Source of the DNA: Hysterangium stoloniferum
Lineage: Eukaryota > Basidiomycota > Agaricomycetes > Hysterangiales > Hysterangiaceae
Length of the DNA: 64,000 bases
Assembly (NCBI GenBank): GCA_015178975.1
Contig: WHVD01000008.1
Coordinates: 1,178,001 to 1,242,000, forward strand
Direction of reading: 5' to 3'
How positions within the stretch are numbered: position 1 is the first letter of the stretch; every line of letters begins with the position of its first letter. Shown here piece after piece: positions 4,044 through 32,000 of this stretch. A program made the translations under genes and the position numbers. A model generated the notes under the pieces. It was not told where the DNA came from. It did no database searches and saw only the letters and a program-made list of their open reading frames with translations.

Positions 4044-4696
4044 ATGGGTCCAAAACCAATGCCTTGTAGACCAACCACCACTGCTGGGCCCTCCATGGGC
4101 TCCCCATATTGGGCTCCACTCACTGCTGCCCAAATCCTGGCACAGTGGGAGGAGCAGCATCGACAAAGGGAGGAAATGGAGAAGATGGCCAAAGAGGCTG
4201 AGGAGGACTTGGAGAGGGAGTACCAGGTGGCACTGGTCACAGAGAAGGAGGCTGAGGAGCAGAGAAAGAGAGATGAGGAGGTGGCATGGGTTGCCACAGA
4301 ACATGCCAAAGCAGCCATGGAGAGGGCTCCAGTTGCTATGGGGAAGGTACAGTGACTCTCAAAACCTTTTCAATCTTTGACATTTGCATATTGGCAGGCT
4401 ACTACCAGGGGAGATAACATAGCAAGAAATCTCAAAGAAATACAATATATAGCTAAACATGTGTAGAATCAGGGTCTAAAATATTATTATGTAATATCCA
4501 TTTTTGGGTATGCTAAAAATAGTTTATTCAGGCCTGCTCATTGAAAAGGTTTATGCTGATGATTATGATGCAATATATGCTATATTAACTGGCCAAATCA
4601 CATAATTTTGTTGATTGTATTCAACATGGTCATATGACTTGTTGATCTATAGTCAATTCTGACATTCCTAGCTCTTTTCATTACCAGCAATCCATC

Positions 4697-5698
4697 ATGC
4701 ACTCCATCACACCTGATCAGCAACAATACATTATCTCCCAGCTTGAAGATGGCCACTCCACTCCATACATTGCCTCAATACTGGTATTAGCATTAGTACT
4801 ATCTCCAGACTTTGCTCTAAATACCTTCCTACCCTCCCAAAATCAACTGGAGGTCATCCCAAGAAGCTCTCTCCCACCAACATCTGTCATGCAGTCCACT
4901 TGATCACCTCTGGAAAGGCTGAAACTGCAGTTGACATAGCCAGAACACTTCAGACCATCACCAACAACCCTATCTCAGCTCATAGAGTTCAGAGGAGCTT
5001 GAAGAGTGCAGGGATGAAAGCAGTTGTGAAGAAGAAGAAGCCACTTTTGTCCAAGAGGCACATGAAGGAGAAACTTGACTTTGCTTTGGGCGACCAGTAT
5101 TGGACTTTAGATGACTGGAGGAGGGTTATATGGTCTGATGAGACTAAAATAAATTGCCTTGGATCAGATGGGAGGAAGTGGGCATGGAAAAAGACTGGGG
5201 AAGGCCTGAATGAGAGGCTAGTTCAAGGAACAGTGAAGTTTGGTGGAGGGTCTGTCATGGTTTGGGAGTGCTTCATGTGGGAGGGTGTGAGATATGCCAC
5301 AGGATTGAGGGTAGAATGGATGGGGAACTTTACAGGAGCATCTTGGATGAAGACCTCCAAAACAGCATCAGGTATTACCAGTTGGACCCTGCTAAAATCA
5401 TCTTTCAGCAGATAATGATCCAAAACATACCTGCAAAAAGGCAAAGGAATGGTTTGAAAATAATGGAATGACTGTCCTACCATGGCCTGCCCAATCGCCA
5501 GACCTCAATGCAATTGAGCATCTATGGGATTACTTGAAGGGAAAGCTGGGACAGTATGCCACTGCACCTAGTGGGATTCTGGAGTTGTGGGAGAGGATAG
5601 AGAAGGAGTGGGAAGATATACCAGCTTCTGAGTATCAGAAGTTAATTGAAAGCATGCCAAGAAGGATTGAGGCAGTCATAAAGGCCAAGGGAGGGTAA
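4697..5698 (+). pseudogene. Tc1-like DD34E transposase, frameshifted
   Basis: The reading continues over three frames. An N-terminal helix-turn-helix part starts at 4697. A catalytic part follows from about 4900 with V-I-W-S-D-E-T-K-I-N (first Asp). The block around the second Asp is damaged near 5420, and a C-terminal part from about 5465 has W-P-A-Q-S-P-D-L-N-A-I-E-H-L-W (the Glu). It ends at 5698 with E-A-V-I-K-A-K-G-G. At least three frameshifts are needed to read through, so the protein is not made and the copy could only move in trans. Confidence 0.82.
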
Positions 5699-5923
5699 AC
5701 CAAGTATTAAAAAATATTGCATATATTGCATCATAATCATCAGCATCAAAACCTTTTCAATGAGCAGGCCTGAATAAACTATTTTTAGCATACCCAAAAA
5801 TGGATATTATGTAATAATATTCTAGACACTGATTCTACATATGTTTAGCTACATATATACTGTATTGTTTTGAGATATTTTGCTATTTTTTCTCCCCTGG
5901 TAGTGGCCTTCCATATGCAAATG

Positions 5924-6665
5924 TGTTAAGAACTGAAAACTGACTAATGTCGGTAGGCCAATGGGGACTGATCGGAAGGACTTGGCTTCAGCTTATGTGC
6001 TGCACCCTTGCAATTATCCATCGGGTGTCCTTAAATTTCGGACGGGCAAAGACTAGTCCTAATGAATACCTCTCAGCAAAACTCCCAATCGGAACCGAAG
6101 GATAAGTTGAGTGTTGGGCCAAGGGGTTGGAGACCGAGAGTGGGTGAGCGCACATGAAGGTGGATAGTGGAGTACTTAGTATGAGACTTCTAGAGGTGTA
6201 AGAGGGTATTCTGAGTCGATATTCTGATTGCCTAGTAACTACAACTACAGTGGGTTCATATACAAATATTCGGTGTCTAGAAAATACTAACTAGGAGAAG
6301 AGTGGAAAGTGGTATTGACAAATAAGCTTGACTAGGAACAGGAAGGTTATGATTAGTTCAGAGGCCATGAAATAACCGAGGGCGGAATTACGAGAAAAGG
6401 AAATAGTCCGAGGGTTACAAGTATATATAGACATATGTGAAACATAGAGTAGAATGGATCATCATAATAAAAGGGACATATCAGAGTTTAACCAGATAGT
6501 ATAAGTATATTTTGATGTGGGTGTAAATGGAGTTTGATCACCATGAAAGCATACGTCAGCATCGGGAGACTGACAGTTTCTGATGTGCTGACTTGAATGA
6601 TGACTTGAATCGTCGATAGGTGGCAATAATCTTGGGGACCGTTGGGTTGCGACATGGTTGTAACA
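5924..6665 (-). repeat. Solo LTR of Gypsy family A, inverted
   Basis: It begins TGTTAAGAAC and ends GTTGTAACA, so it is an A-family LTR in reverse. It is flanked by the perfect target duplication AAATG (5919-5923 and 6666-6670). The sequence is clearly related to the LTRs at 9807 and 16797 but is older: many CpG sites of those copies read TpG or CpA here. The U5 motif GGACTTGGCTTCAGCTTATG is at 5978-5997. Confidence 0.88.
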
Positions 6666-7344
6666 AAATGTCAAACATTGAAAAGGTTTTGAGAGTCACT
6701 GTAAGTCCCAATGATTTGCATAATTGTCCTTACTGACTTTTGGTTTCTAGCACAAGGTAGTAGAAATGGAGTCCAAGTCTGAGGGGGAAGCCGGGAGCCC
6801 TCAAAAGGTAAGTGGCAGGTCTACAGGGATGTCCAGGTACTGACCACACTAACAGAAAACAAGGAAAACAGCTCCAGTCCACTTGGAGGCAAAGAATGAC
6901 CTGTGATGTTCCGGTTGTAATGACCAGAAGACTGACTGTTACTGGAAGTCTGGGCAGGCACTGGGCTGTTGGCCATGTGCACACCTCAAAGCAAAGTGCT
7001 CACTGGTTCATGAGCCCACAGGGTCCATGGTATGGGAAGCAGATGGCTCAGACAGGCCTGGGGGCTTGGAGGTGGTTTTGGGGCAAATAGCCACAGGCAT
7101 AGAGGTCCAGAACCAGTTGCTTGAAGAGAGGATGCAGGGGACCATGGTGGAGATGCTCCAAGAACTCTGTGGATAGTTCTGGGCATTCTTGGCAGAGTAT
7201 GACAGGTATGTGTATGCAGAACCCCAGATTGGGAGTTCTGAGGAGCCTGGTGAGGATGAGGATGGGGTGCCCAAGGAAGTGGCAGGACTCCAAACGGAGT
7301 ATAATGAAAGCAGGCAGAAGCATAGCCCCATAAATGTAGAATGA

Positions 7345-7541
7345 AAGAAAACAAATAATAAAGTTTAATTAATTTCTTTTTTTTTTTAAAATAAAAATAA
7401 AAGCATGAAATGTAAAAGTCCGTGGGAGGTCTGCTAAAACTTAAATAAAACAAGTCAGAAACCTGTAAACACAAAGAGAGACATAGGGCAACAGGGAAAA
7501 ATGAAGTGAATCCAATATATACACAGGGTCTGTGGATTGCA
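7345..7541. other. Spacer between convergent accessory gene and pol of element F
   Basis: AT-rich DNA with a T-run and A-runs (7376-7400). No gene. It lies between the two convergent stop codons of element F and may hold both polyadenylation regions. Confidence 0.4.
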
Positions 7542-8729
7542 GTTAGAGAGAGGATAGTGGTCTGGGTTTGAGTAGGTAAGCTGTGTGAAAGTCAGTGACA
7601 ATCTCCATGGCATTACCAAGTTCTGTGGCCAAAATCCATGATGTCTCTTCATCTGTGCCCTTGTAACCCACCCACTTGACCAAGTAAAGCAATTTATAAG
7701 TGCATCAATGCTTATCTATTTTTGAGTCTAAAATTTGTGAGATTTCAAACTCAGGTTCTCTGTCAATAATGACCGGAGGGGACAGAAATTGCACACAATC
7801 CAGGATAGTATTAGCAGTATACGGTTCTAGCATAGAAACATGAAATACCGGGTGTACTGTGTGCATGCTATCCAGAAGCCATAGGGTCCATGAAACTGAA
7901 CCTACTTGTGCTAGTATTGTTATGACCGTGTTGCAACCCAACAGTCCCTGAGGTTATTGCCACCTATTGACGTTTCAAGTTATTGATCAAGTCATCACAT
8001 TGGAAACCGTCAGTTGCCTGATGCTGATGTATGCTTTCACGGCGATCAAACCCCATTTACACCCCCATCAAATTATACTCGTACTATCTGGTTATACTCT
8101 GATACGTCCCTTTTTTATTATGATGATCCATTCCACACCATGTTTCACATATGCCCATATATACTTGTAACCCGTGGACTATTTCCTTTTCTCATAATCC
8201 CGCTCTCAGTTAAATCATGGCCTCTGAACTTATCGTAACCTTCCATTCCTAGTCAAGTTTATTTGTCAGTAATGTTTCCGCTCTTACCTTAGTATTTTCT
8301 AGATGCCAATAATTTGTATATGAATCTGCTGTAGTTGTAGATACTAGGCAATCAGAATATCAACTCAGAACACCCACATACATATCTAGAAGTCTTACTC
8401 TAAGTATCCTGCTCTCCGCCTTTGCGTGCGCTTGCCCACTCTCACCCCTTGGCCCAACACTTGACTTATTCTTTGGTCCCGATCAGCAACTCACTGTGAG
8501 GAACTCATCAGGACTAGTCTTTGCCTGCCTGAAATTTAAGGACACCCAATGGTTACTTGTGAGGGCGCAGCACATAAGCTGAAGCCAAGTCCTTCCAATC
8601 AGTCCCTGTCAGCCTACCGACATTAGTCAGTTTTCAGTTCTTAACAGTTATTTCAAATGGACCTAAATATTTTTCAGTTAGTTTCTTTGATGGACAGGTA
8701 GTCTGGAAAAATTGAGCTTTGACAAAAAT
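7542..8729 (-). pseudogene. Gypsy element F integrase C-terminus and chromodomain, split by an LTR
   Basis: Read on the minus strand, 8729-8647 gives F-V-K-A-Q-F-F-Q-T-T-C-P-S-K-K-L-T-E-K-Y and G-P-F-E, the GPF/Y block of a Gypsy integrase. The frame resumes after the LTR at 7917 with V-S-W-T-L, then V-H-P-V-F-H-V-S-M-L-E-P. A chromodomain follows near 7700-7600 (L-L-Y-L-V-K-W, E-T-S-W-I-L-A-T-E-L). The stop is TAA at 7544-7542. Element A has the same blocks at 15100-15550. The rest of F pol to the right has been replaced by LTRs D and C. Confidence 0.85.
7918..8646 (+). repeat. Solo LTR of Gypsy family A, inserted in element F integrase
   Basis: It runs from TGTTATGACC to GTTCTTAACA, 729 bases, and aligns along its whole length with the element A LTRs. 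It interrupts the F integrase frame just after G-P-F-E. The flanking pentamers (AGTAT and GTTAT) do not match exactly, so the duplication has decayed. CpG sites of the young copy are mostly TpG/CpA here. The U5 motif is at 8573-8592. Confidence 0.82.
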
Positions 8730-9380
8730 TGTTAACAGTTGTGCACAGAGCTTATTGGAGGATTTCCAGAGAAACCCGCAGGAAAGCTGGTAGGACTTGG
8801 CTTCAGCTTATAGGCTGCACCCTTGTGAGATCATCTTGTCCAATTTCAAATGAGCAGACGGGAATCCCGGGGAGTCTGGGAGGGGTTCGTGGGTTGAGAG
8901 GTCAGGGAGTTGAGAGATAAATAGGTTGGAGGTTGAGTGATAGATGGGTCGGAGCTGGCGGACTCCGATGAGGTCAAGCGGTGTGTTTCAAAGAGGAGAT
9001 TAGAGTGGAAAATGTACTTGAGATTACTGGGGGGAATATAAGCTGTTTTTCTGACTGGATTGTATGTACAACATCTGCCAGACTATATAGACTGTGGAAT
9101 GAATAACAAACCAAATCCAGTAATAATGAAAACTAAACTAGCAAACATGAAACAAGATAAATAAACACCAAACTTGGTGTTAGGAACAGAGTGGAGTCCA
9201 AATTGTGACAGGTTATAAACCCATAACGGGAATGGGGCGGGAGCAGAGTCCGAATTGTGACAGGTCATTTGACCATAACAGGAACAGGGCTCAGTTAGAG
9301 AGCTGTCGGGTTTTCTGAGTGGGGTCTGGTGACTGGTGTGCATGGGACAGGGTCAGAGATAGACAGGAGTGGAGTCTGGC
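8730..9380 (-). repeat. LTR family D, partial, inverted
   Basis: It starts TGTTAACAG and carries GGACTTGGCTTCAGCTTATA at 8793-8812. It then shows the sequence blocks seen in the fuller copy at 25467-26780, for example the GACAGGTCATTTGACCATAA region near 9260. It is cut at 9380 by an LTR of family C. No target duplication can be scored. Confidence 0.65.
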
Positions 9381-9806
9381 TGTGAGAGGTACTGTGAAAT
9401 ATACTCTGAAATATAGTCTGGATGAGTCCATACTATATTTCCATTATCATTTCTATTTTCTCTCTATTTTATTATACGCATATATTTCGTTCGATGACCT
9501 ATGCATTCGGTACATTGACTCTTGTGGGCACATATGTGCCAGACCTATGTATTCTAGCACTGGTAGTTAGAACTCAGACACTTTTTACCTCATAACCACG
9601 ACTTGCCCAGACACCCATTTAGTGTCCTGCAAGTTGTGATTGAGGTATCATCTCGACTATCACAGATGGGCTTTAACTACCAGTGCAATCATAGTTTCAA
9701 ACTACACTAGTTGAAACTCGAACCATTATCTCAATCCACGTGGACTATATCTGTGCTACTCTGTTTATTCAACTCTCTAGTTATTTCCTTAAACACTCGA
9801 GTAGTT
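9381..9806 (+). repeat. LTR family C, 5' part, truncated by element A
   Basis: It begins TGTGAGAGGTACTG and runs parallel to the LTR at 37069-37699. Shared landmarks are GAACTCAGACACTTTTTAC, the paired arms GAAATATAGT / ACTATATTTC, and CACTCGAG(T/C)AG. It stops where the 5' LTR of element A begins; the remainder was not found on the other side of element A. Confidence 0.78.
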
Positions 9807-10526
9807 TGTTACGACTGTGTCGCAACCCTATCGGCCCCGAGGTTATCGCCACTTGTCAACGTTTCAAGTCATCCTCTCGGAAACCATCGGCCCCGAAGCT
9901 GACGAATGTTTCACGAAGATCAAACTCCATTTACACCCACGTCAAATAACTCGTATTGTCTGGTCAAACTTTGATACGTCCCCTTTATTATGTTGATCCG
10001 TTCAATCTTATGTTTCGCATATGTCTATCTATATTTGTAGTCCTCGAACCATTTCCTTTTACCGTAATCCCGCTCTCGGTTATCATCGGCCTCCGAACTA
10101 ATCATAAACTTCCCGTTCCTAGTCAAGCTTATTGTTAATACCGTGTTCCGCCCTTCTCCCCATTAGTATTTTCCAGACGCCTGTTACTTGTATATGAACC
10201 CGCTGTAATTGTAGTTACTAGGCAATCAGAATATCGACTCAGAATACCCTCATACACCTGTATCAGTCTCATACTAAGAATCCCCCCATCCGCCTTCGCG
10301 TGCGCTCGCCCACTCCCGGCCCCGACCCCTTGGCCCGACGCTCGACTTGTCCTTCGATTCCGATCGGTATCACGCCGAAAGGTACTCACTAGGATTAGTC
10401 TTCGCCCGCCCGAAATTTAAGGACATCCTACGGATATTTGCGAGGGCGCAGCACATAAGCTGAAGCCAAGTCCTTCCGATCGGTCCCTGTCGGCCACCGA
10501 TATTAGTCAGTTTCTAGTTCTTAACA
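9807..10526 (+). repeat. Element A 5' LTR
   Basis: 720 bases, TGTTACGACTG to GTTCTTAACA. The U5 motif CATAAGCTGAAGCCAAGTCC is at 10454-10473, about 50 bases before the LTR end. The LTR is rich in intact CpG sites, unlike older family members in the window. Confidence 0.93.
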
Positions 10527-10564
10527 GTATATTCTGATTTCACACTCGCATTTTCCGTCTAAAC

Positions 10565-11863
10565 ATGCCTCCGAGGAAAAATGCCAAGCCTAGCGGCGAA
10601 GCAGAATCTTCCACTCTCAAGTCTCCTTTTCTGTATACAGCCCGAGCTACTCAGAAAACTCCGCTACCAGAAACCTCCGAAGAATCTCGCTTTGTGGAGA
10701 TTACCGGCGATGTTGAAGAAGTAACTGAAGCAACCGATCCCGAAGCAACTGAGGAGATTAACAATCAACCAGTTTCGGAACATGAACCCGAGGATGGCGA
10801 CCAACCTCAGGCTAGTGGCTCCAAGAAGTCTGCAAAGAAGAAACCGGCTCTCGACCCTGAAGAAACATGGGAATTGTTTTCAGGTACACTAGGATCCCTT
10901 AATGAATTCCTTAAAAGCAATATCAAGGAAAAGGAACCTGGGCAAACCCGAGTCAACAAACCCGAGCCATTTACTGGCTCAAACCCGAAGAAATTGCCGA
11001 CATTTCTTATGCAATGTCGATTCAACTTTCGGGACCGCCCGGCTGCATTCACAACGGATGACTGAAAGGTAAACTTCGCACTCTCATACCTTAAGGATTC
11101 CGCAGCAGCCTGGTTCGAACCCGCATTTTCTGGCCTCACCTCTGAAGACCCCGATTGGCTCCACGATTGGGATGCCTTTGTCGAGGAACTCGAAACCAAC
11201 TTCGGCCCCTACGACCAAACCGGCGATGCAGAAACCGCGCTTTCTAATCTCAAAATGAAAGACACTCAGCGCATCACCGATTATATTGTCCAGTTCAACA
11301 ACCTCGCCGCGCGTTGCGACTGGGGCGATTCGGCCCTCCGATACCAGTTTTACTCCGGCCTTCCGTCTCGCCTCAAAGACGAAGTTTCCAAAGGAGAGAT
11401 CGGCAAGCCGAAAACCCTCCCTCTCATGCACCTGAAAGCCCAAAACGCAGACGCTCGATACTGGGAACGACGTTCGGAAATCAGTCGCGAAAACCCGTCG
11501 GACAAAAAATCATCGGACAACAAAAATGCCAACAAGTCTGGTAATCAAAACACCAATAACACTGGCAACTCGACTTCCGATAAGAAGTCCGAAAACAAAG
11601 GGTCTAACGACAAAAAAGGCAAGGGCAAACAGTCGAATAAATCTCAAGACAAAGACAAACTTGACTTAACTGGCAAACTCGGCTCCGATGGCAAGCTCCT
11701 ACCACAGGAAAAGCAACGCCGAATGGACAACAACCTTTGTTTGTTGTGTGCAGATCCCGGACACCGAGTCGCTGCATGCCCAAAAGCCACAAAAGCCCAA
11801 TCGGCCAATACGGCCACGACCTCACAACCGGCCAAGCCGGCTGCCGAGTCGAAAAAAGATTAA
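10565..11863 (+). pseudogene. gag: Element A gag polyprotein with CCHC zinc knuckle, one nonsense codon
   Basis: The ATG at 10565 follows the 5' LTR by 38 bases. The N-terminus is acidic/Ser-rich; a capsid-like region follows (K-P-E-P-F-T-G-S to Y-W-E-R-R), then a long Lys/Asn/Ser-rich linker. The zinc knuckle C-L-L-C-A-D-P-G-H-R-V-A-A-C (C-x2-C-x4-H-x4-C) lies near 11740-11785. A TGA at about 11063-11065 interrupts the capsid region; sequence continues in the same frame, so this is a single point mutation. About 432 codons in all. Pol follows in the -1 frame, so a programmed frameshift or separate translation is likely in intact relatives. Confidence 0.9.
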
Positions 11864-14800
11864 GCAACTCTCTGGATTCCGTGCAGTTGGAGAGTTGCGT
11901 TGAATCTCCTCGCACACCGGAAAATTGTCATCTTAACGCATCCGCCTTGTATGATCCTAATTCTTTGTTCATAAATCTTACTTCAGAACCTCTCGGGAGT
12001 TTCACTTTTCGAGCTCTCATAGATTCAGGTTCAACCCATTGTTTTATAGATACAAGTTTTTCCCGAAAAAAACAGTTGAAAACTTATGCAATAGATCCGA
12101 TTCCGCTCCGACTTTTTGATGGTACCTCAAACTCCGTAATCTCGCAAGCCTGCGAACTCCGACTTCAGTTCCCGTGTGGAACCTTTCAGACAGTTACGTT
12201 TTTTGTAACACAGTTGGACTCGAGCTGCTCCGTGGTTCTAGGACATAACTGGCTCACCCGCTATAATCCGTTGATTGATTGGGTATTGGGCAGTATCCAT
12301 TTCCGAACCCCGTCGGCACCCGATATGACTGGTCCGTTTCCGCCTGTTTCGGCAAATATGGCTTCTACAGCACCTCCAGCCCCCGTGGCAAATCCGACCT
12401 CTCCGCTGCCCGTCTCTCTAATAAACGCCACAGCTTTTATGAGAGCCATCAAGTTGGACGGCTCCCGAGCATTTACAGTCAATCTTAAAGTTGACGAAGT
12501 CACCGGTCGCTTTGCATCCCCGGTGACCGAACCGATCGCAGATTTAGAAGGTGTTCCTAAAAAATACCATGAATTTGCAGATGTCTTCAGTAAACAAAAA
12601 GCCGATCGACTCGCCCCTCACAGGCCTTACGATTTGAAAATTGATATTGAAGATGGTTCACATCCGCCCCTAGGCCCAGTTTATCCTCTCTCACAGTCCG
12701 AATTATCGGCTATCCGAGATTTCTTGGATGAACATTTGGCTATAGGTTTTATCCGACCCTCAAAGTCTCCCTATGGAGCCCCTGTCCTATTCGTTCAGAA
12801 AAAAGACGGTTCCCTTCGACTTTGCGTTGACTTTCGAGGACTAAACGCGATTACTCGAAAAGACAAGTACCCATTACCATTAATCTCCGATTTACTCGAC
12901 GCCCCTCGGAAGGCCCGAATTTATACAAAGATAGATCTCAAACACGCCTATCATTTGGTTCGGATCGCCGAAGGCGACGAATGGAAAACAGCTTTTCGCA
13001 CTCGCTATGGTTCCTTTGAATGGTTAGTGATGCCTTTCGGCCTCACCAACACTCCGTCGGTCTTTCAACGTTTTATCAACAACGTCTTTTCCGACCTCCT
13101 TGACGTCTTTGTCATTGTGTACCTAGACGACATCCTCATCTTCTCTGAAGACCCTACACTTCATGATGAACACGTCCGTGAAGTCCTCTGAAGACTCCGA
13201 AAACATGGTCTTTTTGCGAATGGTAAAAAATGTTCTTTTGATGTCGACACGGTTGAATACTTAGGCTTCATGATGGGACCCGACGGTCTCCGCATGGACG
13301 ACGCTAAAATTCAAGTCATTCAAGATTGGCCGGAACCCCGAAAGGTTAAAGATATTCAGTCCTTTTTAGGCTTCGCCAATTTTTATCGCCGTTTCATTCA
13401 CAATTACTCAAAAATTACCATTCCGCTCACTCGTCTTACTCGCAAAGACACCCCGTGGAATTTCTCCGACGAATGCCGATCGGCATTCCAGGAATTGAAA
13501 AGTGCGTTTACATCCGCCCCTATTTTGTCGCACTGGAAACCCGACGTTCAACTCATCGTGGAAACTGATGCTTCGGACTATGCGCTTGCCGCGATATTGT
13601 CCATTCTGGACACTGATGGTGAAGTACACCCAGTAGCTTTTCTGTCTCGCACATTTTCGGCGCCCGAACTCAACTACGACGTTCACGATAAGGAATTACT
13701 CGCAATCTTTGAAGCTTTCAAGACATGGTGACATTATTTGGAGGGCTCGGCCCACCCTGGTAGATGTTATTACAGACCACAAAAATTTAGTTTACTTTTC
13801 AACCACAAAACTTCTCACCCGTCGACAAGCTCGATGGTCCGAATACCTCTCCGCTTTCAACATGGTAATTCGCTTCCGTCCCGGCCGCCTTGGTGGAAAA
13901 CCCGACGCTATGACTAGACGATGGGACGTCTATCCTAAAGAGGGGAGTAGCGACTACGCCACAGTTAATCCGCATAATTTCAAACCTATGTTTTCATCGG
14001 AACAACTGTCCGCATCTATCCGAGCCACTTACCTCATTCATCCAGTCTTGCGAAGTGTTATCCTTATGGATACCGAAAAGTTACATCAAGATATACTATC
14101 GGCAATTCCATTAGACCCAGTCACCAAAGCACACCTCGATAACCCGTCCGACCCCGATCAGCCCCGATGGTCATTAGACTCACAAGGTTTCATTCGACTT
14201 GACAATCGCATTTATGTACCGGATTCCGACACCCTTCGGCTGCGAATCCTACAACATAAGCACGACCACCCAATCTCAGGACATTTCGGCCTCAATAAGA
14301 CCCTCTCACTCATTAGAAGAGAATATACATGGCCCGGCATCCGAGATTTTGTTAAGCACTATTGTAAATCCTGTACTACGTGTTTACGCTCTAAATCACA
14401 GCGACACAAACCATATGGCCTACTCAAACAATTACCGATACCGGAAAAACCTTGGAACTCGATTTCTATGGATTTTATCGAGCACCTACCGGCATCCGAA
14501 GGTCACACAGCAATCCTAGTTGTTGTGGATCGGCTCTCAAAGCAAAGTATTTTCATTCCAACATATGACACGATAACATCTGTACAGTTAGCTGAATTAT
14601 TCGTTACCCATGTATTTTCCAAGCATGGCGTTCCGTCGCATGTCACATCCGATCGCGGATCCGAGTTTGTCTCTCACTTCTTTAGGTCACTCGGAAAAGC
14701 ACTAGACATGAAGTTACATTTCACTTCGGGCTATCACCCGGAAGGCGATGGACAAACCGAACGCATGAATCAAACCTTGGAGCAATACATCCGTGTCTAT

Positions 14801-15550
14801 TGCAACTATCAACAAGACAATTGGAAATCACTACTACCGCTGGCCGAATTCGCATACAACAACGCACCGAATGCCACTACTGGCATTTCGCCTTTCTTCG
14901 CAAATAAAGGCTACAACCCCAACATCGCAATCCACCCGGAACGCGATCTCGCATCCGCCCGTGCTCAAGACTTTGTTACAAACCTCGACGAGCTACATCA
15001 AGAACTTCGTAAAACTATCGCAATGGCTCAAGAACGATACCAACGGTCTGCGGATAAAAACCGACTTCCACCTCCTGATTTCAAGATCGGAGACCGAGTA
15101 TTCGTTAAAGCCGAGTTTTTCCGAACTACTAGACCTTCTAAGAAGCTCTCTGAAAAATATTTAGGTCCTTTTGAAGTTATAGCACAAGCCGGCACGCTTT
15201 CATGGACGCTTCGGCTCCCCGACAACATGCGTGCAGTGCACCCGGTATTTCATGTATCTATGTTAGAACCTTGTGTTCCTAACAATATACCGGATCGCAT
15301 ACAACCACCACCTCCACCCGTGATTATTGATGGGGAACCCGAATTCGAGATATCAGAAATCCTAGACTCAAAAATCGACAATCGCCGACGCTCATGCAAA
15401 TTACTTTATTTGGTCAAATGGGCTGGCTATGAAGGTACAGATGAAGAAACTTCATGGATCCTAGCTACAGAGCTCGGTAATGCCTCGGAAATCGTTTTAG
15501 GGTTTCACCAAGCTTATCCGAACAAACCCGGTCCTCTCAATTCCTTATAA
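11864..15550 (+). pseudogene. pol: Element A pol: protease, RT, RNase H, integrase, chromodomain
   Basis: The order is aspartic protease (L-I-D-S-G-S-T-H-C-F-I-D near 12020), then RT with V-Y-L-D-D-I-L-I-F (near 13120). RNase H has E-T-D-A-S-D-Y-A-L-A (13560) and D-K-E-L-L-A-I (13690). The integrase has its H/H/C/C zinc module (H-x3-H near 14270, C-K-S-C-T-T-C near 14375) and D, D, E core residues (S-M-D-F-I, T-S-D-R-G-S-E-F, H-P-E-G-D-G-Q-T-E-R). GPF/Y and a C-terminal chromodomain end at 15550. Defects are TGA at 13189-13191, TGA at 13729-13731 and a one-base insertion near 13760. The chromodomain marks a chromovirus, which targets modified histones. Confidence 0.93.
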
Positions 15551-15645
15551 GTCTATCACGTGGTACCCGACCTTTTTTCCGACTATGCCTTATGTTTTCA
15601 CGCTATGATTTGTTGTTTAAAGAAAAAACCGATATATTTCACTAT
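15551..15645. other. Gap between convergent pol and accessory gene of element A
   Basis: Ninety-five bases separate the two facing stop codons. Any polyadenylation signals for both transcripts must overlap here or reach into the opposite gene, so the two mRNAs are likely complementary over part of their 3' ends. That is an inference from spacing. Confidence 0.4.
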
Positions 15646-16569
15646 CTAAGTTTCTCCCTCTACAACTTCTCCCTCCTCTCCGACCTCCGAACCCTCCTCC
15701 GCACCGACAGCCACCGATACCACACCACCGACCTTCTCCGAAACCCCAATTTCATGCCCACCGCAACTCGAGACTTCCAAATACTGCTCAAGTTGACCAC
15801 CGAGAGACTTGATAACGCTGGTCTGTTTCTCCAGCCCGACGCCCAAGAGTCGCAATTGCTCAGTTATGAGCCCTTGTTGTCGCAACATCTCATATCGGTA
15901 CCGGCTCGTCTCCGAGAAGTAGGTCCGCATGAGGCGGTTTTGCTCTTCTAGAGCATCGGCCTGTCGCTCCTGGAATGAGCCATCGGCCCCCGGGAAAACA
16001 CACCCAAGCTTCTGATCAGCACACTCTTGACAAGTGCGGCCCCGACCATTGGTCCGGGGATGACAGGTTCGACCCCGTTTCGTGCACCGATTGCACTTGG
16101 GGTCATTTTCGGGCCCCGCCTTGGGGGCCTGCTTTTGTTTCTATAGAAAAAAATTATTTAGGAAGTTTTCTTTAGGAAACCGAACCCACCTTGGGGCTCG
16201 ACGGCCCCGGTGCATCCTCCTCGTCCTCCTCTCCCTCTTCGTCATCGGACTCCGAAGGCGTTGCAGCCTTGCGCTAACAGATATTGTCAGTAAGGTTCGC
16301 AAAAGACACCAGAGCCGACTCACTTTTCCCTCCCGCTTCTTTTTCGCCGCCTCCTCCTGTGCCCGATCGGCCTCCTGCTGCTTGTTCTTTGCAAGCACTG
16401 CTTCCCAGTGCTTGCGCGCGGCCTCTTCTGCCGCCTGTTTCTTTTCCTCGGCCTCGATGGCCGCCAACTCCTCCTTCTCTTTCTGCTCCTCCTCTTCACG
16501 CGCCTTTTTTTTCTGCTCGAGTATACGCCGACGCTCCTTCGCGTTCACCGTACCACTCGGCGCCGACAT
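15646..16569 (-). CDS. Antisense accessory protein of element A: coiled coil, acidic exon, Zn2Cys6-like cluster
   Basis: Three exons on the minus strand, 16569-16324, 16273-16190 and 16140-15646, give 274 residues without a stop. Both introns (50 and 49 nt) are GT-AG and phase 0; intron 1 has a TACTGAC branch site. Residues 1-82 are an Ala/Glu/Lys coiled coil. Exon 2 is an acidic, Ser-rich stretch (S-E-S-D-D-E-E-G-E-E-D-E-E-D). Exon 3 holds CNRCTKRGRTC, ten residues, CQECADQKLGC, then a helical region and a Gly/Val/Glu-rich end. The spacing C-x2-C-x6-C-x10-C-x2-C-x6-C matches the Zn2Cys6 consensus of fungal regulators. The protein is intact although gag and pol are broken. An upstream in-frame ATG at 16623 would add 18 residues. 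Function is unproved; DNA binding is an inference. Confidence 0.78.
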
Positions 16570-16782
16570 GGGCGCAACTGTTAACCTAACCGGGAAGGGC
16601 TTTGACCCCGAGCCTATGGTCATGGTGGTTAAAGGAAGGGAAGTGGAATTTCAAGCGCCAGGAACTCTCAAACTTTTATATGCAAACTTTTGCCGAGTCA
16701 CATGATGTTTGACACACCCAGCCGTACCCGACAAGTTTTTACGTACGGGATCTAGATTTTCGGCCTCCTTGGGATTTCGGCC

Positions 16783-16796
16783 AAAAGGGGAGATAC
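16783..16796 (+). promoter_or_regulatory. Element A polypurine tract
   Basis: AAAAGGGGAGATAC lies directly before the 3' LTR start (TGTTACG). This is where the plus-strand primer of Gypsy elements is cut. The position is diagnostic; the exact cleavage site is not. Confidence 0.75.
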
Positions 16797-17514
16797 TGTT
16801 ACGACCGTGTCGCAACCCTATCGGCCCCGAGGTTATCGCCACTTGTCAACGTTTCAAGTCATCCTCTCGGAAACCATCGGCCCCGAAGCTGACGAATGTT
16901 TCGCGAAGATCAAACTCCATTTACACCCACGTCAAATAACTTGTATTGTCTGGTCAAACTTTGATACGTCCCCTTTATTATGTTGATCCGTTCAATCTTA
17001 TGTTTCGCATATGTCTATCTATATTTGTAGTCCTTGAACCATTTCCTTTTATCGTAATCCCGCTCTCGGTTATCATCGGCCTCCGAACTAATCATAAACT
17101 TCCCGTTCCTAGTCAAGCTTATTGTTAATACCGTGTTCCGCCCTTCTCCCCATTAGTATTTTCCAGACGCCTGTTACTTGTATATGAACCCGCTGTAATT
17201 GTAGTTACTAGGCAATCAGAATATCGACTCAGAATACCCTCATACACCTGTATCAGTCTCATACTAAGACTTCCCCCATCCGCCTTCGCGTGCGCTCGCC
17301 CACACCCGGCCCCGACCCCTTGGCCCGACGCCCGACTTGTCCTTCGATTCCGATCGGTATCACGCCGAAAGGTACTCACTAGGACTAGTCTTCGCCCGCC
17401 CGAAATTTAAGGACACCCTACGGATATTTGCGAGGGCGCAGCCCATAAGCTGAAGCCAAGTCCTTCCGATCGGTCCCTGTCGGCCACCGACATTAGTCAG
17501 TTTCCAGTTCTTAA
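16797..17514 (+). repeat. Element A 3' LTR
   Basis: 718 bases, nearly identical to the 5' LTR, ending TTCTTAA where the 5' copy ends TTCTTAACA. The U5 motif is at 17454-17473. Directly after it comes the 3' part of element B, with no recognisable pol in between. Confidence 0.92.
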
Positions 17515-17539
17515 TACTTCCATCCCGACTTCCATCTCA

Positions 17540-18601
17540 TCAGCAATTTCTGCACTTTCCACCATATGTATCCTGCACCTCTTCATCCTCACTCTCTAAT
17601 ATTTTCGGCCCATTCCCTGACTCCCATCTTTTTTTGACACTTTCCACCAACGGATCATTAGGCTGTTCCCTTGCCTTATCGGAAAATCTTTCGGAAACTG
17701 CGATAATACCGATGCTAACCATTACCTTCTCCAGGAATTCGTTTTGCCTCCGGAAGTTTCGAATCAACAAACGGAAACCATTTTCCTGGATCTCATTATG
17801 GTGATCTAGTGTATCCCACATTTTCATAACTTCCATCCCGATAAAGACTAACACGTCGACTGTGTCCTTGAGGAGCTCCATGCCCGTACTATCCATTTTT
17901 GTTACCTCAGTTTCTGCAGTTTTGGCCACTCCCGAACCTTCCGCATCGTTAGTTTTCTGAGGCTTCTCACCTTTTGAACCCTTTTCGAGGTGAGAGTGCA
18001 CGGAAGTTTAAGGACCACACAGGGATAGCAAGTTCCACCCCATTTTACCTTCTGTTTCCAACACGTCATACTCCGTATGGAACATTGATAACACGGATTT
18101 TCATGGACCACTTCCATCCATTCCGGAGCCTTGACCTTTGGCTTCTGTTTCGGAAGTTAATCAAATATCGGCCTTTTGTATATGCACTTACTTTAGGACT
18201 CGAAGGTCCAGCCTCTCCCTCTACTTCCACCTCCACGGCTTTTCACTGTACCCAATAGTTATTGGTTGGAACAACGGAAATTTATGGATATCACTTACCT
18301 TTCCTTCCCTTATCTCCTCATGTTTCTTCGCCACCTCTGACTCCCACTGTAACCTTTCCGCCTCTTCCTTCCTTTTCTGAGCCTCCGCCTTCGCCCGCTC
18401 CAACGCCTGTTTTTTCGCCTCTTCCACATCTTTCAACTCCTGCATCAACGCCTTCTCCTCCTCCTCCTGTTGTCGCTTCAACTCCTCCATCTTTCGTTGT
18501 TTTTGTTGAAGTTCTGCGACCTTCGACATTTTTTGTAGAATGGCAATTTCAGTATCTGAATCTTCCAGGGTAGTGATGAACAGAGGCCAATGAATCGACA
18601 T
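17540..18601 (-). pseudogene. Antisense accessory gene of Gypsy element B: coiled coil plus Zn2Cys6-like motif, frameshifted
   Basis: Exon 1 (18601-18299, inner ATG at 18529) is a Glu/Lys/Gln coiled coil ending E-I-R-E-G-K with a GTAAGT donor. Exon 2 (about 18240-18190) reads V-E-V-E-V-E-G-E-A-G-P-S-S-P-K, again acidic/Ser-rich. Exon 3 holds CYQCSIRSMTC, ten residues, CYPCVVLKLPC, and then a long helical region to TAG/TAA at 17540. One base is out of frame at the exon 1/2 joint and another shift lies after the last Cys (about 18000), so this copy is probably dead. Sequence identity to the A and F proteins is low outside the cysteines, which argues that the motif itself is under selection. Confidence 0.65.
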
Positions 18602-18785
18602 ACAAGTTGTGGATGAAGAAACAAAAACATTAATTCGAATATTTGGAGGTTTTTATACTCAGAACATCAGCCGAAACTCTCACCTCCAGAATTGCGTAAA
18701 TTTTACGACACATAATAATCAGCCATCGCTTCAATCACTCAGTACCTAATCGCCTCTATGGGATTTCAGCCTAACAGGGGGGTAC

Positions 18786-19317
18786 TGTTACGACCTGTTC
18801 CCGGATGTTTCAATATCCGACTTCCAATCTCCGACTACGGAACATCATAGTTACCATATCATCTGCATTCATCCCTTATTCCACATTTGGTAATTTGTCC
18901 GTTGACAAGTATTCACTCGTTTGTTTGTTGTATTCCCGTTTCGGAATATTGTCTCCCTAATATGTCTTATTGTATTTCCGTTTTAAGAACACTTCCATTT
19001 CCATCTTATTATGGTCTTAGTTTGTAGTACAATAACGAGTAGACTTATATTAGTTTCCGCGAATTTGTACTTTACCTTAGATCTGATATTGACTTAGTTT
19101 CTTATTCCTCCTCCTGGCTTTCTGTACGCTCAATATTCGGAATTCTTCAGAACTCTGAATATCTGTATCTTCCATCGTAAGCCTTACTTCCGAAATTAAG
19201 GACTTTGAGCGTTTGCGTAGAGGTGCAGCACATAAGCTGAAGCCGACATCCTGACCCTATCCAATAGTTCCCGACTTCCCGGTGACTTTCTGATAGTTCC
19301 GGAATAAGTTCCCAACA
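18786..19317 (+). repeat. LTR of Gypsy element B (3' LTR)
   Basis: 532 bases, TGTTACGACCTGTT to AAGTTCCCAACA, preceded by a G-rich polypurine-like tract (ACAGGGGGGTAC). It carries CATAAGCTGAAGCC at 19231, the first 14 bases of the U5 motif. Only the 3' part of element B is present in the window; gag and pol are missing. Confidence 0.75.
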
Positions 19318-20078
19318 TGGCCCTTAACAAAGGGTCTCTGTGAAGACAAGAATATCATTTATGTAAACAATGTCAACCTGTCCATCAATCAGTTCTATGA
19401 ACAGATCATTCATCATAGTCCAGGACTGTTGGTGAGACCAAAGAACATGACTAGTGGCTCAAATAACCCTCTATTGGTCCTAAATGCTGCCTTCCACTCA
19501 TCTCCCTTCTTTATCCTAACATTGTTATAACCCCATCTGACATCCAGTTTGGTGAAGTATTTGGCTTTCTTCAACTTGCTGATAATGTCAGATATGAGTG
19601 GCAGGGATAGGAATTTTTGATTGTCATGTCATTCAGTTTCCTATAATCCTGAACCAGCCTCAAGGATCCATCCTTCTTTTTGACAAAAAACACTGGGGAT
19701 GCCATATGGGATTTGGAGAGTTGGATCCTACCACTTTTAAGGTTCTCCTCTAGAAATACATCTGACTCCTTCTGTTCATTTGGTGCTAAGGAGTAAAGCG
19801 TGCATCTGAAAGGTTCTGACCAAGGTTTTAATTCAATGGCATAATCCCAGGGCTTTCTATCAGGTAGCCTGTCAAAGGACTCTTTGGATAATACCCTCTT
19901 AAATTGGTGGTAATAACTTGGGGACTGAATCCTCAAAGGTTTTCTTCTGGTCCTGTTTATGAGACTCTTCTGCCAGCTTCTGAGATACAGTAGAAGTAGC
20001 ATTGACATTGGACTGAAGATAGACAGTTGTAGCCCAGATCCTGTCACTGTCTTCAACCTCTGACTGGTCATATGTATT
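19318..20078 (-). pseudogene. Gypsy element E reverse transcriptase, fragment
   Basis: Read on the minus strand from 20078 the protein shows [16 protein letters not shown], then [16 protein letters not shown] and [17 protein letters not shown] with the Q-D-Y-R-K-L-N motif. After a frameshift near 19610 it continues to an R-W-G-Y-N-N-V-R block and D-I-V-Y-I-N-D-I-L-V near 19365-19340, where YxDD reads YIND. It ends abruptly at the LTR of element B. Confidence 0.85.
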
Positions 20079-20722
20079 TGTTAAGAACAGAAAACTGACT
20101 GAAGTCAGTAGACCGATGGGGACCGAATGGAAGGACTTGGCTTCAGCTTATGTGCTGTGCCCTCACAAGTTACCATCAGATGTCCTTAAATTCAGGTGGG
20201 TGGAAAACTAATCCTGTCAAATAGTCCTCTTGGTAAGTCATTAATCAGAAGTTGAAGGACAGTAGGGGGTCACAAGGTTGGAGACTGAAAGTGAGCGAGT
20301 ACAAGCAAAGGTGGGAGCGGGATACTTCGAGTGGGACTATGAGAGAGGTATACAAGTGTTCTGAGTCAATATTCTGATTGTCCTAATACTACAATACATG
20401 AGCGGCATATATACGGAAACCTGGCACTTATCTGAATGAGAACAGAACAAAGGAAAGTACTAATGGAGAAGGCAGAACTACATATAGAGTGACATGAGGA
20501 TGGAGACCGATAGACAGAACATTACAAATCTGGATGTAGACTACTACGGAGGCGGAAAGAGGCATAAACTGGTTGTATAGAAAGGGCAGACAGAAAATAC
20601 CAATCAGGAATAATGGATGTGCTAAATGGGGTTAGTCGGGTTACCAATCGTTTGCAAGCGATTGGAGGTTTGTGTGAGGTGCGATTGGGGTTGACAGTGT
20701 GCCGAGCACATGGGTCATAACA
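20079..20722 (-). repeat. LTR family E, inverted, inserted between protease and RT of element E
   Basis: It runs from TGTTAAGAACAG to GGGTCATAACA, 644 bases. Its last 110 bases (in LTR orientation) resemble family A, including the U5 motif at 20133-20152 (reverse). The Gypsy frame before it (E-A-E-D-E-E-E-E-E-D) and after it (Y-D-Q-S-E-V-E-D) belongs to one pol gene, so this is an insertion. Flanking pentamers do not match. Confidence 0.78.
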
Positions 20723-25466: not shown

Positions 25467-26780
25467 GGGTGTTAAGTTCTGAACAAAGGCCCACAGAAGT
25501 CCCATGGAGGTTTTCAGTAATTATTCCAAACACACTTCTTCTTCCAGGAATTGTCCCACGGAGTCCCTGGGTAATAAGTCTGGGGGAGTTTCTGGATATT
25601 AGTACAAGGGAGTGTGGTATCAGAATAATTACCAGAAAGGTGTGGTTCTGCTGAGATGGACTTGGCTTCAGCTTATAGGCTGCACCCTCATACACTCATT
25701 CAGGTGTCCATATTTCAAGCTGACAGAATGCATACAGGAAGATGTAGATTCCGGACTTCCCATGGGAGTTCTGGGAATTGAGCATGCAGACAGACAAGAG
25801 GACTAGAGACTGGATCAGGGGTGTAACTTGTTCAAGATTCAAACTGGATTGTAAGTACATGAATATAGCAGACTTATATAGACTTTGAAATGTAATAATA
25901 CCAAATCTGGTATTAATGAGGGGCAGAACTATTAAACATAAAATGAAACAAGTGAATACTAAACTGGGAATTAGGGATGGAACGGAATGGGAGTGGAGAA
26001 TGAATCATGACAGGTCATTAGACCATAATGGGAACAGGGCTCTGTTAGAGGGGTTCTGGGGAGTCTGGTCAGGGTCCAGTGACTGGTCCATGAGATATGG
26101 AGTGTTGGGTGTATATAGGGTGGAGTTTGGAGTCTGGTGGAGTTTGGAGTCCGGTGGAGTTTGGAGTCTGGTGGAGTTTGGAGTCCAGTGGAGTTTGGAG
26201 TCCAGTGGAGTTTGGAGTCCAGTGGATTTTGGAGTCCAGTGGAGTTTGGAGTCCAGTGGAGTTTGGAGTCCAGTGGAGTTTGGAGTCCAGTGGAGTTTGG
26301 AGTCCGGTGGAGTTTGGAGTCCGGTGGAGTCCGACAACTGGTACATGAGACACATGACAGACCATTTGACCATAATGGGAGTAGGGTTCTAAGATCTGTT
26401 AGAGAGTCCAAGGACTGGTGTATATGACACAGTGTTGGATATAGACAGGTTGAGGTGCAAGTCCAGTGGAGTCCGACAACTGGTGCATATAGGGTGACAT
26501 GCAGGTTCTGGGAGTCTGGCCGGAGTCCAGTTCAGGAGATGACCAAGAACATGTAACGAAGTTAAATGTCAAAGGGTGGAGTCCGTGGATTCCAGGTCAT
26601 AACAGAAGGTGTCTAGTTGGGGGTAGATAGGGTGGGGTGCATACAGAGAGTCAGGCATAAACAAGTTGATGTGTGGGCTCCAGTGGGAACTCTGGTTGTA
26701 ACTATACAATATAGAGGGTCAGGAGTATGTAGGATGGGGTCCGGAAGCCTGGAGGCTGGCAGGTTTTCCGGTTCCTGACA
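25467..26780 (-). repeat. LTR family D, inverted, with internal minisatellite
   Basis: It runs from TGTTAAGTTC to GGTTCCTGACA, 1.31 kb, inverted relative to the window. Inside are the U5-type motif at 25658-25677, a TATATA box, and a 17-base minisatellite at 26131-26335. Other copies are at 8730-9380 (partial) and 52543-53995 (plus strand). It interrupts the transposase of Tc1 element 3. No clean target duplication was seen. Confidence 0.72.
26131..26335. repeat. Minisatellite, about 12 units of 17 bases
   Basis: The unit is GGAGTTTGGAGTCCAGT, with C/T and A/G variants at the last positions and one G-to-T change. Because 17 is not a multiple of three, all frames on both strands stay open and give 17-residue peptide repeats; none is likely to be translated. 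The other LTR D copies carry shorter versions of the same array. Confidence 0.88.
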
Positions 26781-29003: not shown

Positions 29004-32000
29004 CTACAAGAGATTAAAAGGAGTCAATGCTGCAGAGAATTGAAGATTACCATATTGAGCAAAAGCTACAAACAGTTTTCCACCAGCTGAAACAGATTTG
29101 TCATTGTCGGCATCAACGAGGGATATACAGTGATGTTGTAAGTTACAGGCAATAATAGCTTCGCGAAGACAATCTTTGAAAAGATGGGTGAGGGGAAGGG
29201 GTTAGCTTGGGTAACAAGGCACACACTATCAGCTGACAGCTTAACAAGCAGGTCAACAATTTGTGTTTGAGTTTGTAAGTAAGTGTCTTCCAACAGTGCA
29301 ACAATGTCGGGAATGACACCCGCAATGGCAACTCGAAATTCGGCTGTGGTCACATGTCAGTTGGGTGCCCATCCCATTATGACACACTGCACCTTGCTCT
29401 GAAACCTTCCCCAGGACGGATACTGCCCCTGATCGAACGCCAGAGTCACAGTCTTTCAACAGTGCCACAACATCAGGAATGACGCCCGCAATGGCGGCTC
29501 GAAATTCGGCTATGGTCAAATGTAAGCTGGGTGCTCATCCCATTATGACGCACCGCACCTCGCTCTGAAACCTTGCACAGGACGGATACTGCCATTGATT
29601 GAACGTCAGAGTCACAGTCGTTCAACAGTGCTGCAATATCGGGAATGAGCCCCGCAATGGCTCCTCGAAATTCGGCTGTGGTCAAATGTCAGCTGGATTC
29701 CCATCCCTTTATCACACCACACCTTGTTCTGAAACCTTCTCCAGGGCCGATACTGCGCTTAATCGAACGTGAGAGTCAGAGTTCTTCAACAGTCCAACAA
29801 TGTCGGGAATGACACCCGCAATGGCCGCTCGAAATTCGGCTGTGGTAAAATGTTAACTAGGTTCCCATCCCATGATCACACACCGCACCGTGCTCTGAAA
29901 CCTTCTCCAGGACCGATACTGCGCTTGATCGAACGTCAGAGTCAGAGTCCTTCAACAATCCAACAATGTTGGGAATGACACCCGCAATGGCCGCTCGAAA
30001 TTCGGCTGTGGTCAAATATCAGCCAGGTTCCCATCCAAATATCACACATTACACCCTGCTCTGAAACCTTTCCCAGAAGTGATAGTCCCTTTGATCGAAC
30101 ATCATGGTCAGAATGCTTCAAGAGTCCAAGAATGTCGTGAATGACACCCGCAATGGCCGCTCGAAATTCGGCTGTGGTCAAATGTCAGCTGGATTCTCAT
30201 CCCATTGTCACACCGCACCGTGCTCTGAAACCTTCTCCAGGACCGATATTGCCCTTGATTGAACGTCATAGTCATAGTCCTCCAACAGTCCAACAATGTC
30301 GGGAATGAGACCCGCAATGGCTGCTCGAAATTCGACTGTGGTCAAATCTTAGCTGGATTCCCATCCCACTATCACACAACGCACCTTGCTCTGAAACCTT
30401 CCCCAGGACCGATACTGCGCTTGATCGAACGTCAGAGTCAGAGTTCTTCAACAATCTAACAATGTCGGGAATGACACCCGCAATGGCGGCTCGGAATTCG
30501 GCTATGATCAAATCTCAGCTGGATTTCCATCACATTATCACACCGCACCTTGTTCTGAAAATTTCCCCAGAACTGATACTGCGCTTGATGGAACGCCCCA
30601 GTCAGAGTCCTTCAGCATTCCAACAATATCGAGAATGACACCCGCAATGGCGGCTCGAAATTCGGCTGTGGTCAAATCTCAGCCGAGGTCCCATCTCATT
30701 ATCACAGACCGCACCCTGCTCTGAAACCTTCCCCAGGACCGATGCTGCCCCTGACCGAACGTCACTGTCAGAATCCTTCAACAGTCCAACAATGTCGAGA
30801 ATGACACTCGGAATGGCGGTTCGAAATTCAACTGTGATGAAGTGTCAGCTGGATTCCCATCCCATTATCACACACCGCACCATGCTCTGAAACCTTCTCC
30901 ACGGCCAATACTGCGCTTGATCGAACGTCAGAGTTGGAGTCCTTCAACAGTCCAACAATATTGGGAATGACACCCGCAATGGCGGCCCGACATTCGGCTG
31001 TGGTCAAATCTCAGCTGGATTCCCATCCCATTATCACACAACGCACCTTGCTCTGAAACCTTCTCCAGGACCGATACTGCGCTTGATCGAACGTCAGAGT
31101 TGGAGTCCTTCAACAGTCCAACAATGTCGGGAATGACACCCGCAAGAGCGGCTTGAAATTGGGCTGTGGTCAAATGTCAGCTAGGCTCCCATCCCATTTT
31201 CACACCGCACCTTGCTCTGATACCTTCTCCAGGACCGATACTGCGCTTGATTGAACGCACCAGTCAAAGTCCTTCAACAGCTCAACAATGTCGAGAATGA
31301 TACCCGCAATGGCTGCTCGAAATTCGGCTGTGGTCAAATCTCAGCTGGATTCCCATCCCATTATCACACACTGCACCTTGCTCTGAAACCTTCTCCAGGA
31401 CTGATGCTGCCCTTGATCGAACGCGCCAGTCAGAGTCCCTCAAGAGTCCAGCAATGTCGGGAATGACACCCGCAATGGCCACTCGAAATTCGGCTGTGGT
31501 CAAATCTCAGCTGGGTTCCCATCCCATTATCACACACCGCACCGTGCTCTGAAACCTTCTCCAAGACCGATACTGCGCTTGATCGAACGTCAGAGTCAGA
31601 GTCCTTCAACAGTCTAACAATGTCGGGAATGACACCCGCAATGGCCGCTCGAAATTCGGCTGTGATCAAATGTCAACTGGGTTCCCATCCCATTATCACA
31701 CCGCACCTTGCTCTGAAACCTTCTCCAGGACCGATACTGCCCTTGATTTAACGTCAGAGTCAGAGTCCTTCAACAGTCCAACAATGTCGGGAATGACACC
31801 CATTGCGGCAGTGGCCGCTCGAAATTCGGCTGTGGTCAAATGTCAACTGGGCTCCCATCCCATTATCACACCGCACCTTGTTCTAAAACCTTCTCCAGGA
31901 CCGATACTGCCCTCGATCGAACGCGAGAGTCAGAGTCCTTCAAAAGTCCAACAATGTCGGGAATGACAACCGCAATGGCCGCTTCGAATTCGGCTGTGAT

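Follow-up and report, generated by a model that had tools for sequence, protein, structure and literature searches.

The locus considered here raises the question of whether a frame running against pol, between pol and the 3' LTR of a Gypsy retrotransposon, is a gene of that element, and what its protein might do. It lies in a window (the whole stretch of 64,000 nucleotides analysed) from the 111-Mb assembly of Hysterangium stoloniferum, an ectomycorrhizal basidiomycete. It is a real gene of the element, beyond chance: 52 copies could be modelled, purifying selection is specific to its frame, and splice sites and TATA box are largely conserved. We give a probability of about 0.5 to the reading that its product is a nuclear, self-associating, DNA-binding accessory regulator of its own element family, acting on transcription or integration.

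Element A and its antisense gene

The carrier, element A, revealed the following features.

9807..10526, plus strand: 5' LTR (paired direct repeat; TG..CA ends read off the sequence)
10565..11863, plus strand: gag (ORFs 10565-11065 and 11255-11863 in the same frame; one in-frame stop)
11737..15550, plus strand: pol, interrupted, with protease, RT, RNase H, integrase and chromodomain (Pfam and ORFs)
15551..15645, no strand: spacer of 95 bp separating the stop of pol from that of the convergent antisense gene (pol stop ends at 15550)
15646..16140, minus strand: antisense exon 3, with the six-cysteine cluster at residues 126-157, a conserved helical region after it, an acidic tail and the stop (spliced model)
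16141..16189, minus strand: intron 2, GTGGG..ATAG, 49 nt, phase 0 (spliced model)
16190..16273, minus strand: exon 2, acidic segment with SPK at its end (spliced model)
16274..16323, minus strand: intron 1, GTGAG..TTAG, 50 nt, phase 0 (spliced model)
16324..16569, minus strand: exon 1, with ATG and a putative helix rich in E, K, A and R (spliced model)
16673..16680, minus strand: TATA box TATAAAAG, 111 nt upstream of the antisense ATG, between the gene and the 3' LTR (from the sequence)
16783..16793, plus strand: polypurine tract adjoining the 3' LTR (read off the sequence)
16797..17516, plus strand: 3' LTR (direct-repeat comparison with the 5' LTR)

Based on its LTRs, a gag gene, the order protease, RT, RNase H and integrase, and a chromodomain, element A is a chromodomain LTR retrotransposon of the Ty3/Gypsy type. 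Its pol is divided into three ORFs (11737-13191, 13270-13731, and 13709-15550), in which RVP_2, RVT_1, RT_RNaseH, rve, and SH3_Tf2-1 were detected over the Pfam cut-off and Chromo just under it (24.5 bits vs. 25.1). The gag product revealed a weak similarity to Retrotrans_gag (E 0.0071, under the cut-off) and carries its own CCHC knuckle, CLLCADPGHRVAAC, as read off the sequence, so that the antisense cluster was rejected as a stand-in for the Gag zinc knuckle. By count, the alignment of the two LTRs contains 15 differing positions among 720, and the insertion is thus not brand-new. No target-site duplication was seen in their flanks. The 3' LTR abuts and cuts a C-type antisense gene (window 17516-17540), which is not continued to the left of the 5' LTR (9795-9806); non-continuing flanks together with the missing duplication suggest a rearrangement during or after the insertion of element A.

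The antisense gene itself (16569-15646, minus strand) comprises three exons with an uninterrupted spliced frame of 274 aa. An earlier note, made from the sequence of the window, had described a three-exon gene between pol and the 3' LTR at 95 bases from the pol stop, which is correct to the base, and had assigned to it a coiled coil, an acidic exon, and the cysteine spacing C-x2-C-x6-C-x10-C-x2-C-x6-C. The spacing is present, and exon 2 is acidic. As to the coiled coil, exon 1 past residue 10 consists of 26% E, 21% K, 19% A, and 10% R, which by composition, with no dedicated predictor behind the call, suggests a charged helix or a coiled coil. The note had also made a point of the gene lacking stops while gag and pol are interrupted. 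The frame is indeed uninterrupted, but the argument has no weight, since about three stops in some 1,750 gag-pol codons predict, as an estimate, only about 0.5 stops in 275 codons. We rejected intactness beside a broken pol as an argument, the gene being short and decaying about like pol. RNA structure in the spacer between pol and the antisense gene was no better than in shuffles, and a search of positions 9000-20500 for tandem repeats near the gene, as known from plant Retand elements, revealed only a 34-bp array within gag.

Copies in the genome and selection on the protein

A nucleotide search of the genome yielded 297 candidates, of which the best 40 were scored, all at 95-100%, while a protein search with exon 3 reached down to 66% identity among the best 150 of 508 candidates. 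Corresponding protein searches covered the best 150 of 400 candidates for family C and the best 150 of 880 for family B; in the former, 132 of the best 150 (of 400) stretches had no stop. Altogether, 52 distinct A-type copies were modelled, all of them from this one genome and located via the antisense gene. As 18 of these (L069-L086) were chosen mostly for a stop-free exon 3, the 33 of 52 with an intact frame represent no rate. Among the 33 closest copies, which were little filtered, the antisense frame was intact in 23, and a 1,320-nt integrase-chromodomain part of pol was free of stops and indels in nine of 20 copies.

The gene plan is kept throughout. Exon 1 has a length divisible by three in 51 of the 52 modelled copies and ranges from 162 to 303 nt in 51 copies, the remaining one measuring 583 nt. 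Intron 1 starts with GT in 52/52 and ends with AG in 51/52 modelled copies; for intron 2 the respective numbers are 51/52 and 50/52, with a length that varies freely between 40 and 60 nt (one of the 52 copies could not be aligned). A TATAWA motif was found 108-113 nt upstream of the ATG in 47/52. A database gene model from Hysterangium stoloniferum (P0001), an independent prediction and not a transcript, represents another copy and has the same exons with both junctions the same. It was the sole match among predicted proteins, which revealed no homologue beyond this genome; such sets omit many transposon genes. A scan of viral contigs resulted in 42 pattern matches and no confirmed relative.

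Linkage to the element is regular as well. The chromodomain end of pol lies convergent to the antisense gene at 20 of 20 A-type loci, eight of nine C-type loci (L040-L048), and five of six B-type loci, counts which element copies lacking the gene would escape, since the loci were found through it. At 19 of the 20 A-type loci, an A-type LTR follows on the far side in the expected orientation, one of these LTRs being partial. The earlier note would have dropped a conserved function had there been no homologues near other Gypsy elements; they were found at A-, B-, and C-type loci. The steady neighbourhood of the chromodomain end of pol, together with a DNA-binding-like motif and a charged helix that would suit a tether, could also point to a protein serving integration or nuclear import, which, alongside the chromodomain, would anchor integrase or the pre-integration complex at chromatin or particular DNA and not control transcription. 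Nuclear import of that complex is discussed in a review of plant antisense ORFs (PMC7264820). The separate antisense promoter would uncouple such a protein from the gag-pol RNA and from particles, and we regard this explanation as unlikely.

There is strong evidence, drawn from codon comparisons, that selection acts on the encoded protein. In 528 pairs from 33 intact copies, which are not independent, dN/dS fell from 0.66 at dS below 0.02 to 0.23 at dS 0.2-0.4, a pattern of constraint during spread of the element and decay after insertion. Across subfamilies, the spliced antisense frame revealed a dN/dS of 0.24 (122 pairs, again not independent), compared with 1.18 and 0.94 in the other forward frames and 1.14 and 1.11 in two reverse frames; the third reverse frame gave 0.35, as expected, since it shares its third positions with the antisense gene. 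Sequence differences amounted to 17.4% at third, 6.6% at first, and 8.3% at second codon positions, and to 10-12% in the introns. The 95% bootstrap upper limits of six representative pairs were 0.31-0.81 and thus all below 1, and twelve diverged copies (L075-L086) compared with ten near ones gave 0.12-0.34, with dS above 1 in four. A ratio near 1, named in the earlier note as grounds for giving up a conserved function, is therefore far from what was obtained. Constraint is strongest in the helix that follows the cluster (dN/dS 0.12); the cluster itself showed 0.50, although its 32 codons offer few synonymous sites. At similar pS, pN/pS was 0.15 for the integrase-chromodomain part and 0.32 for the antisense gene in the same 13 copies, which were kept out of 21 after those with pol indels or a non-intact antisense gene were dropped. 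Among the matches listed from decayed exon-3 copies genome-wide, TGA was the commonest stop, which would follow from C-to-T mutation of CGA codons at CpG and may reflect methylation of the DNA or a comparable process.

These data also bear on the idea that the antisense RNA itself is the product, controlling the element as dsRNA or lncRNA, with the open frame secondary. Along the whole gene, such a transcript would form the complement of the genomic RNA; one report describes antisense RNAs of transposons in a fungus (PMC10648671), and another suggests them for plants (PMC7264820). A function of the RNA alone is insufficient to explain selection that is frame-specific at the codon level, as seen in the twelve diverged copies, and the length of intron 2 is unconstrained. 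While protein and RNA roles could coexist, we consider this alternative very unlikely and reject RNA as the sole product.

The six-cysteine cluster and the genes of families B and C

The note's statement that the same gene plan occurs in two other Gypsy elements of the window proved right for elements B and C, although both window copies are damaged.

17517..18601, minus strand: element C antisense gene (exon 1 18601-18299, exon 2 18245-18192, exon 3 from 18144)
4044..7345, plus strand: element B antisense gene (exon 1 4044-4346, exon 2 6751-6807, exon 3 from 6856; edges read off the sequence)
7556..7913, minus strand: pol end (chromodomain) of element B, convergent to its antisense gene (71% to the pol end of element A, inverted repeat)

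The window copy of element C has a stop at the start of exon 2 and a frame change in exon 3; its far end was cut off by the 3' LTR of element A, which left this copy (L039) with no adjacent chromodomain, and its own 3' LTR starts near 18786. A TATA box was found at -56. In the window copy of element B, intron 1 is split by a Tc1-like transposon, a stop directly precedes the cysteines, and a TATA box lies 51-53 nt upstream, as read off the sequence. The transposon (HTH_Tnp_Tc3_2; window about 4356-6697) has the inverted ends CTCTCAAAACCTTTTCAAT and itself contains a solo LTR (about 5931-6664), so that insertions are nested here. For the pol end of element B, the chromodomain revealed 71% aa identity in L087.

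All three families have the three-exon plan with phase-0 introns in common. In B and C relatives, exon 1 again appears as a charged helix, with GK at its end, and exon 3 starts near QK and continues into the cluster; exon 2 of undamaged copies starts with (R/H/C)K(A/V) and ends with SPK or SPQK. Two of the nine C-type loci (L046, L048) were dropped for want of a findable six-cysteine cluster; counting the window copy, eight were modelled, of which seven have a TATA box 56 nt upstream. With regard to divergence, families A and C share 80-82% protein identity in the integrase-chromodomain part of pol (dN 0.10-0.12; three loci, excluding L042, where the pol frame is by chance only), compared with 41-47% in exon 3 (dN 0.52-0.60; four loci), where no more than 32-45 residues could be aligned. 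Thus, the gene is old in the lineage; between families it diverges much faster than pol does, yet within a family it is conserved. The same contrast could indicate an arms race, in which the protein would be a counter-defence factor shielding the element from silencing by the host. Selection within family A is purifying, not positive, however, and fast divergence equally fits co-evolution with a fast-changing LTR; we therefore hold this explanation to be quite improbable.

Among eight aligned A, B, and C sequences, of which one from C shares 21-24% identity with those of A and B, the six cysteines, K50, G40, E94, and L131 are invariant, and the six cysteines are kept in 52/52 modelled A-type copies. 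Zn2Cys6 domains follow the pattern C-x2-C-x6-C-x(5-12)-C-x2-C-x(6-8)-C, and their basic, DNA-contacting half comes first (PROSITE half pattern PS00463). The spacing agrees with this pattern in all 52 A-type copies and in 8/8 aligned members, with x9 instead of x10 in B. Similarity to the Pfam family Zn_clus (PF00172) stayed below the cut-off (best 19.5 bits vs. 21, E 0.001), with a match in three of eight exon-3 sequences, and the Pfam scan gave no Zn_clus match for the spliced protein of element A or its exon 3. A profile match to the PPR1 chain 1pyi was likewise weak (E 0.82, fifth of 13 weak matches). The order of the halves also differs, as the PROSITE first-half pattern was fitted by the second, lysine-containing C-x2-C-x6-C in 52/52 A-type copies and by the first in 0/52. 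When halves were compared separately with Zn_clus, both second halves of B-type sequences matched profile positions 2-17/18 and one of the two first halves matched positions 16-31 (E 0.015-0.066 for first and second halves together). None of the six A- and C-type half pieces matched, so that only three of ten pieces did, all of B type; the A-type copy L076 gave a crossed order, too (E 1.8). Though each single match is weak, we think that this is probably a Zn2Cys6-like cluster with its halves swapped. Of the Zn2Cys6 consensus claimed in the note, spacing and a weak Zn_clus similarity hold, but plain membership of the family is not fully supported, given sub-cut-off scores and halves that look swapped. 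Similar crossed cysteine layouts occur in predicted proteins of other Agaricomycetes. In comparison with Zn2Cys6 factors such as PPR1 and GAL4, the protein has in common the spacing 2-6-10-2-6 (9 in B) and the invariant lysine in the C-x2-C-x3-K-x2-C half; it differs in its sub-cut-off Pfam score, in having the lysine half second, in being encoded by a retroelement, and in helix-like stretches on both sides of the cluster.

As zinc-cluster-like motifs are typical of fungal transcription factors, the motif and its weak Zn_clus similarity might suggest a host transcription-factor gene captured recently, or copies selected for host benefit. Against this, three diverged element families carry the gene in the same position, dN/dS is highest in the youngest pairs (0.66) with copies decaying after insertion, and none of the 42 Zn_clus matches listed coincides with a copy of the antisense gene (among the best 150 per family search). 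Host co-option was rejected as the main reading based on this decay pattern and the linkage to the element, and we rate it as highly improbable.

Proposed role and relation to known antisense genes

The antisense gene is best explained as an accessory gene of a chromodomain Ty3/Gypsy lineage. Transcription from a TATA promoter inside the element, located between gene and 3' LTR, would yield an antisense pre-mRNA, from which two short introns would be spliced out to give a protein of about 275 aa. This protein would have a charged helix at its N terminus, an acidic linker whose ends are basic, a probably binuclear zinc cluster with swapped halves, and a conserved helix at its C terminus. It may enter the nucleus, self-associate, and bind DNA of its own family, in the LTR or the promoter region, thereby adjusting transcription or integration, much as HBZ acts on HTLV-1 transcription and as has been put forward for plant antisense ORFs. 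Of the possible roles, this one fits the anatomy most simply, and it has precedents. Gene structure, conservation, selection on the protein, and linkage to pol and LTR are observed; we infer expression, zinc, nuclear location, DNA binding, the target, and the sign of regulation, and LTR regulation by an antisense protein is put forward by analogy. Antisense placement lets the introns survive, because reverse-transcribed sense genomic RNA contains them only as their complement and hence unspliced. Their retention at the same positions in three families points to integrated DNA as the template from which the gene is read. It also shows a route by which a retroelement can retain introns, namely in a gene carried antisense.

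With respect to a possible target, inverted CGG sites numbered nine in the LTR compared with 3.6 by shuffle, and 38 compared with 21 in gag-pol. CGG/CCG inverted pairs as a Zn2Cys6 target were therefore dropped, being enriched in gag-pol as in the LTR. The word CCGATCGG occurs twice per LTR, compared with about zero in shuffles, and one of the two is altered in the LTR of B. A 17-base core, GCACATAAGCTGAAGCC, is common to A-, B-, and C-type LTR stretches and has 3,721 exact matches genome-wide vs. 0 for the reversed word; that it may be a target of the antisense protein is a guess. Its window sites are 8575, 10455, 17445 (one change), about 5985 and about 20140 (both minus strand), and about 19240. 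LTR stretches with this core (A, B, the solo LTR, a fragment, and C) otherwise barely align, revealing a deep conservation of the LTR core.

Antisense genes between pol and the 3' LTR are already known from plants, where those termed aORF-3R include gene23 of maize Grande, rice RIRE2, Silene Retand (TRP28/PF04195), and PvRetro13, with no role assigned in the accounts given there (PMC7264820, PMC11963269). Gene23 has its promoter upstream of the gene and encodes a nuclear protein (PMC7264820), and for the TRP28 genes of Retand DNA binding was predicted (PMC11963269). The Hysterangium gene agrees with the definition of aORF-3R, an antisense ORF between pol and the 3' LTR in many copies, and resembles the plant genes in position, orientation, and, for some of them, the proposed DNA binding. 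Unlike them, it resides in a fungal chromodomain element, whereas Retand belongs to a non-chromovirus plant lineage (PMC11963269), and it encodes a six-cysteine cluster in place of TRP28, SMC, or other domains. It also keeps two introns in three families, while the word 'intron' is absent from the main texts of both reports (PMC7264820, PMC11963269). Pfam scans of the Hysterangium proteins gave no match to the plant aORF proteins (TRP28, SMC).

A viral parallel is HBZ of HTLV-1, a nuclear bZIP protein encoded by a spliced antisense transcript, which reduces 5' LTR-driven expression (PMC10186651). Like HBZ and APH of other HTLVs, the gene described here is antisense and, by prediction, spliced; it differs from HBZ in its putative zinc cluster instead of a bZIP, and in a TATA box inside the element and outside the LTR instead of a start in the 3' LTR, and no homology is claimed. 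Additional ORFs, as extra genes in LTR elements, have likewise been described for LTR retrotransposons of bdelloid rotifers (PMC5408684) and for fungal Gypsy elements, with a dUTPase and with an 'add. ORF' of unassigned function that is displayed in a survey figure (PMC2864245); the main text of the latter survey does not contain the words 'antisense' or 'zinc'. The earlier note knew of no description of such a gene, and in the open-licence literature we found no account for fungi of an antisense gene, or a zinc cluster, between pol and the 3' LTR. What would be new here is the fungal, intron-bearing case in a chromodomain element, with a zinc-cluster-like motif.

Should the protein bind its own LTR, the question of what such genes do would come down to an ordinary binding assay, and because one genome contains at least three diverged families, whether protein and LTR have diverged together can be tested directly. 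In a far wider version, which we consider doubtful, fungal chromodomain elements that have radiated and left LTR traces by the thousand in one genome would all control themselves through an antisense, intron-bearing, half-swapped Zn2Cys6 factor that reads the LTR core, as an independently evolved fungal counterpart of HBZ and the plant aORFs. Regulation of the transcription-factor type would, in that version, be a repeated solution of retroelements.

Elsewhere in the window, a 918-aa open frame (59474-62230, minus strand) had no Pfam match at E 0.01, and two tandem arrays were found, one satellite-like with a period near 166 bp (29217-32394) and one with a 17-bp unit (26069-26391). Finally, a Copia element on the minus strand (42812-48236) harbors an unbroken gag-pol frame of 1515 aa, and its direct repeats are identical over the 300 bases compared.
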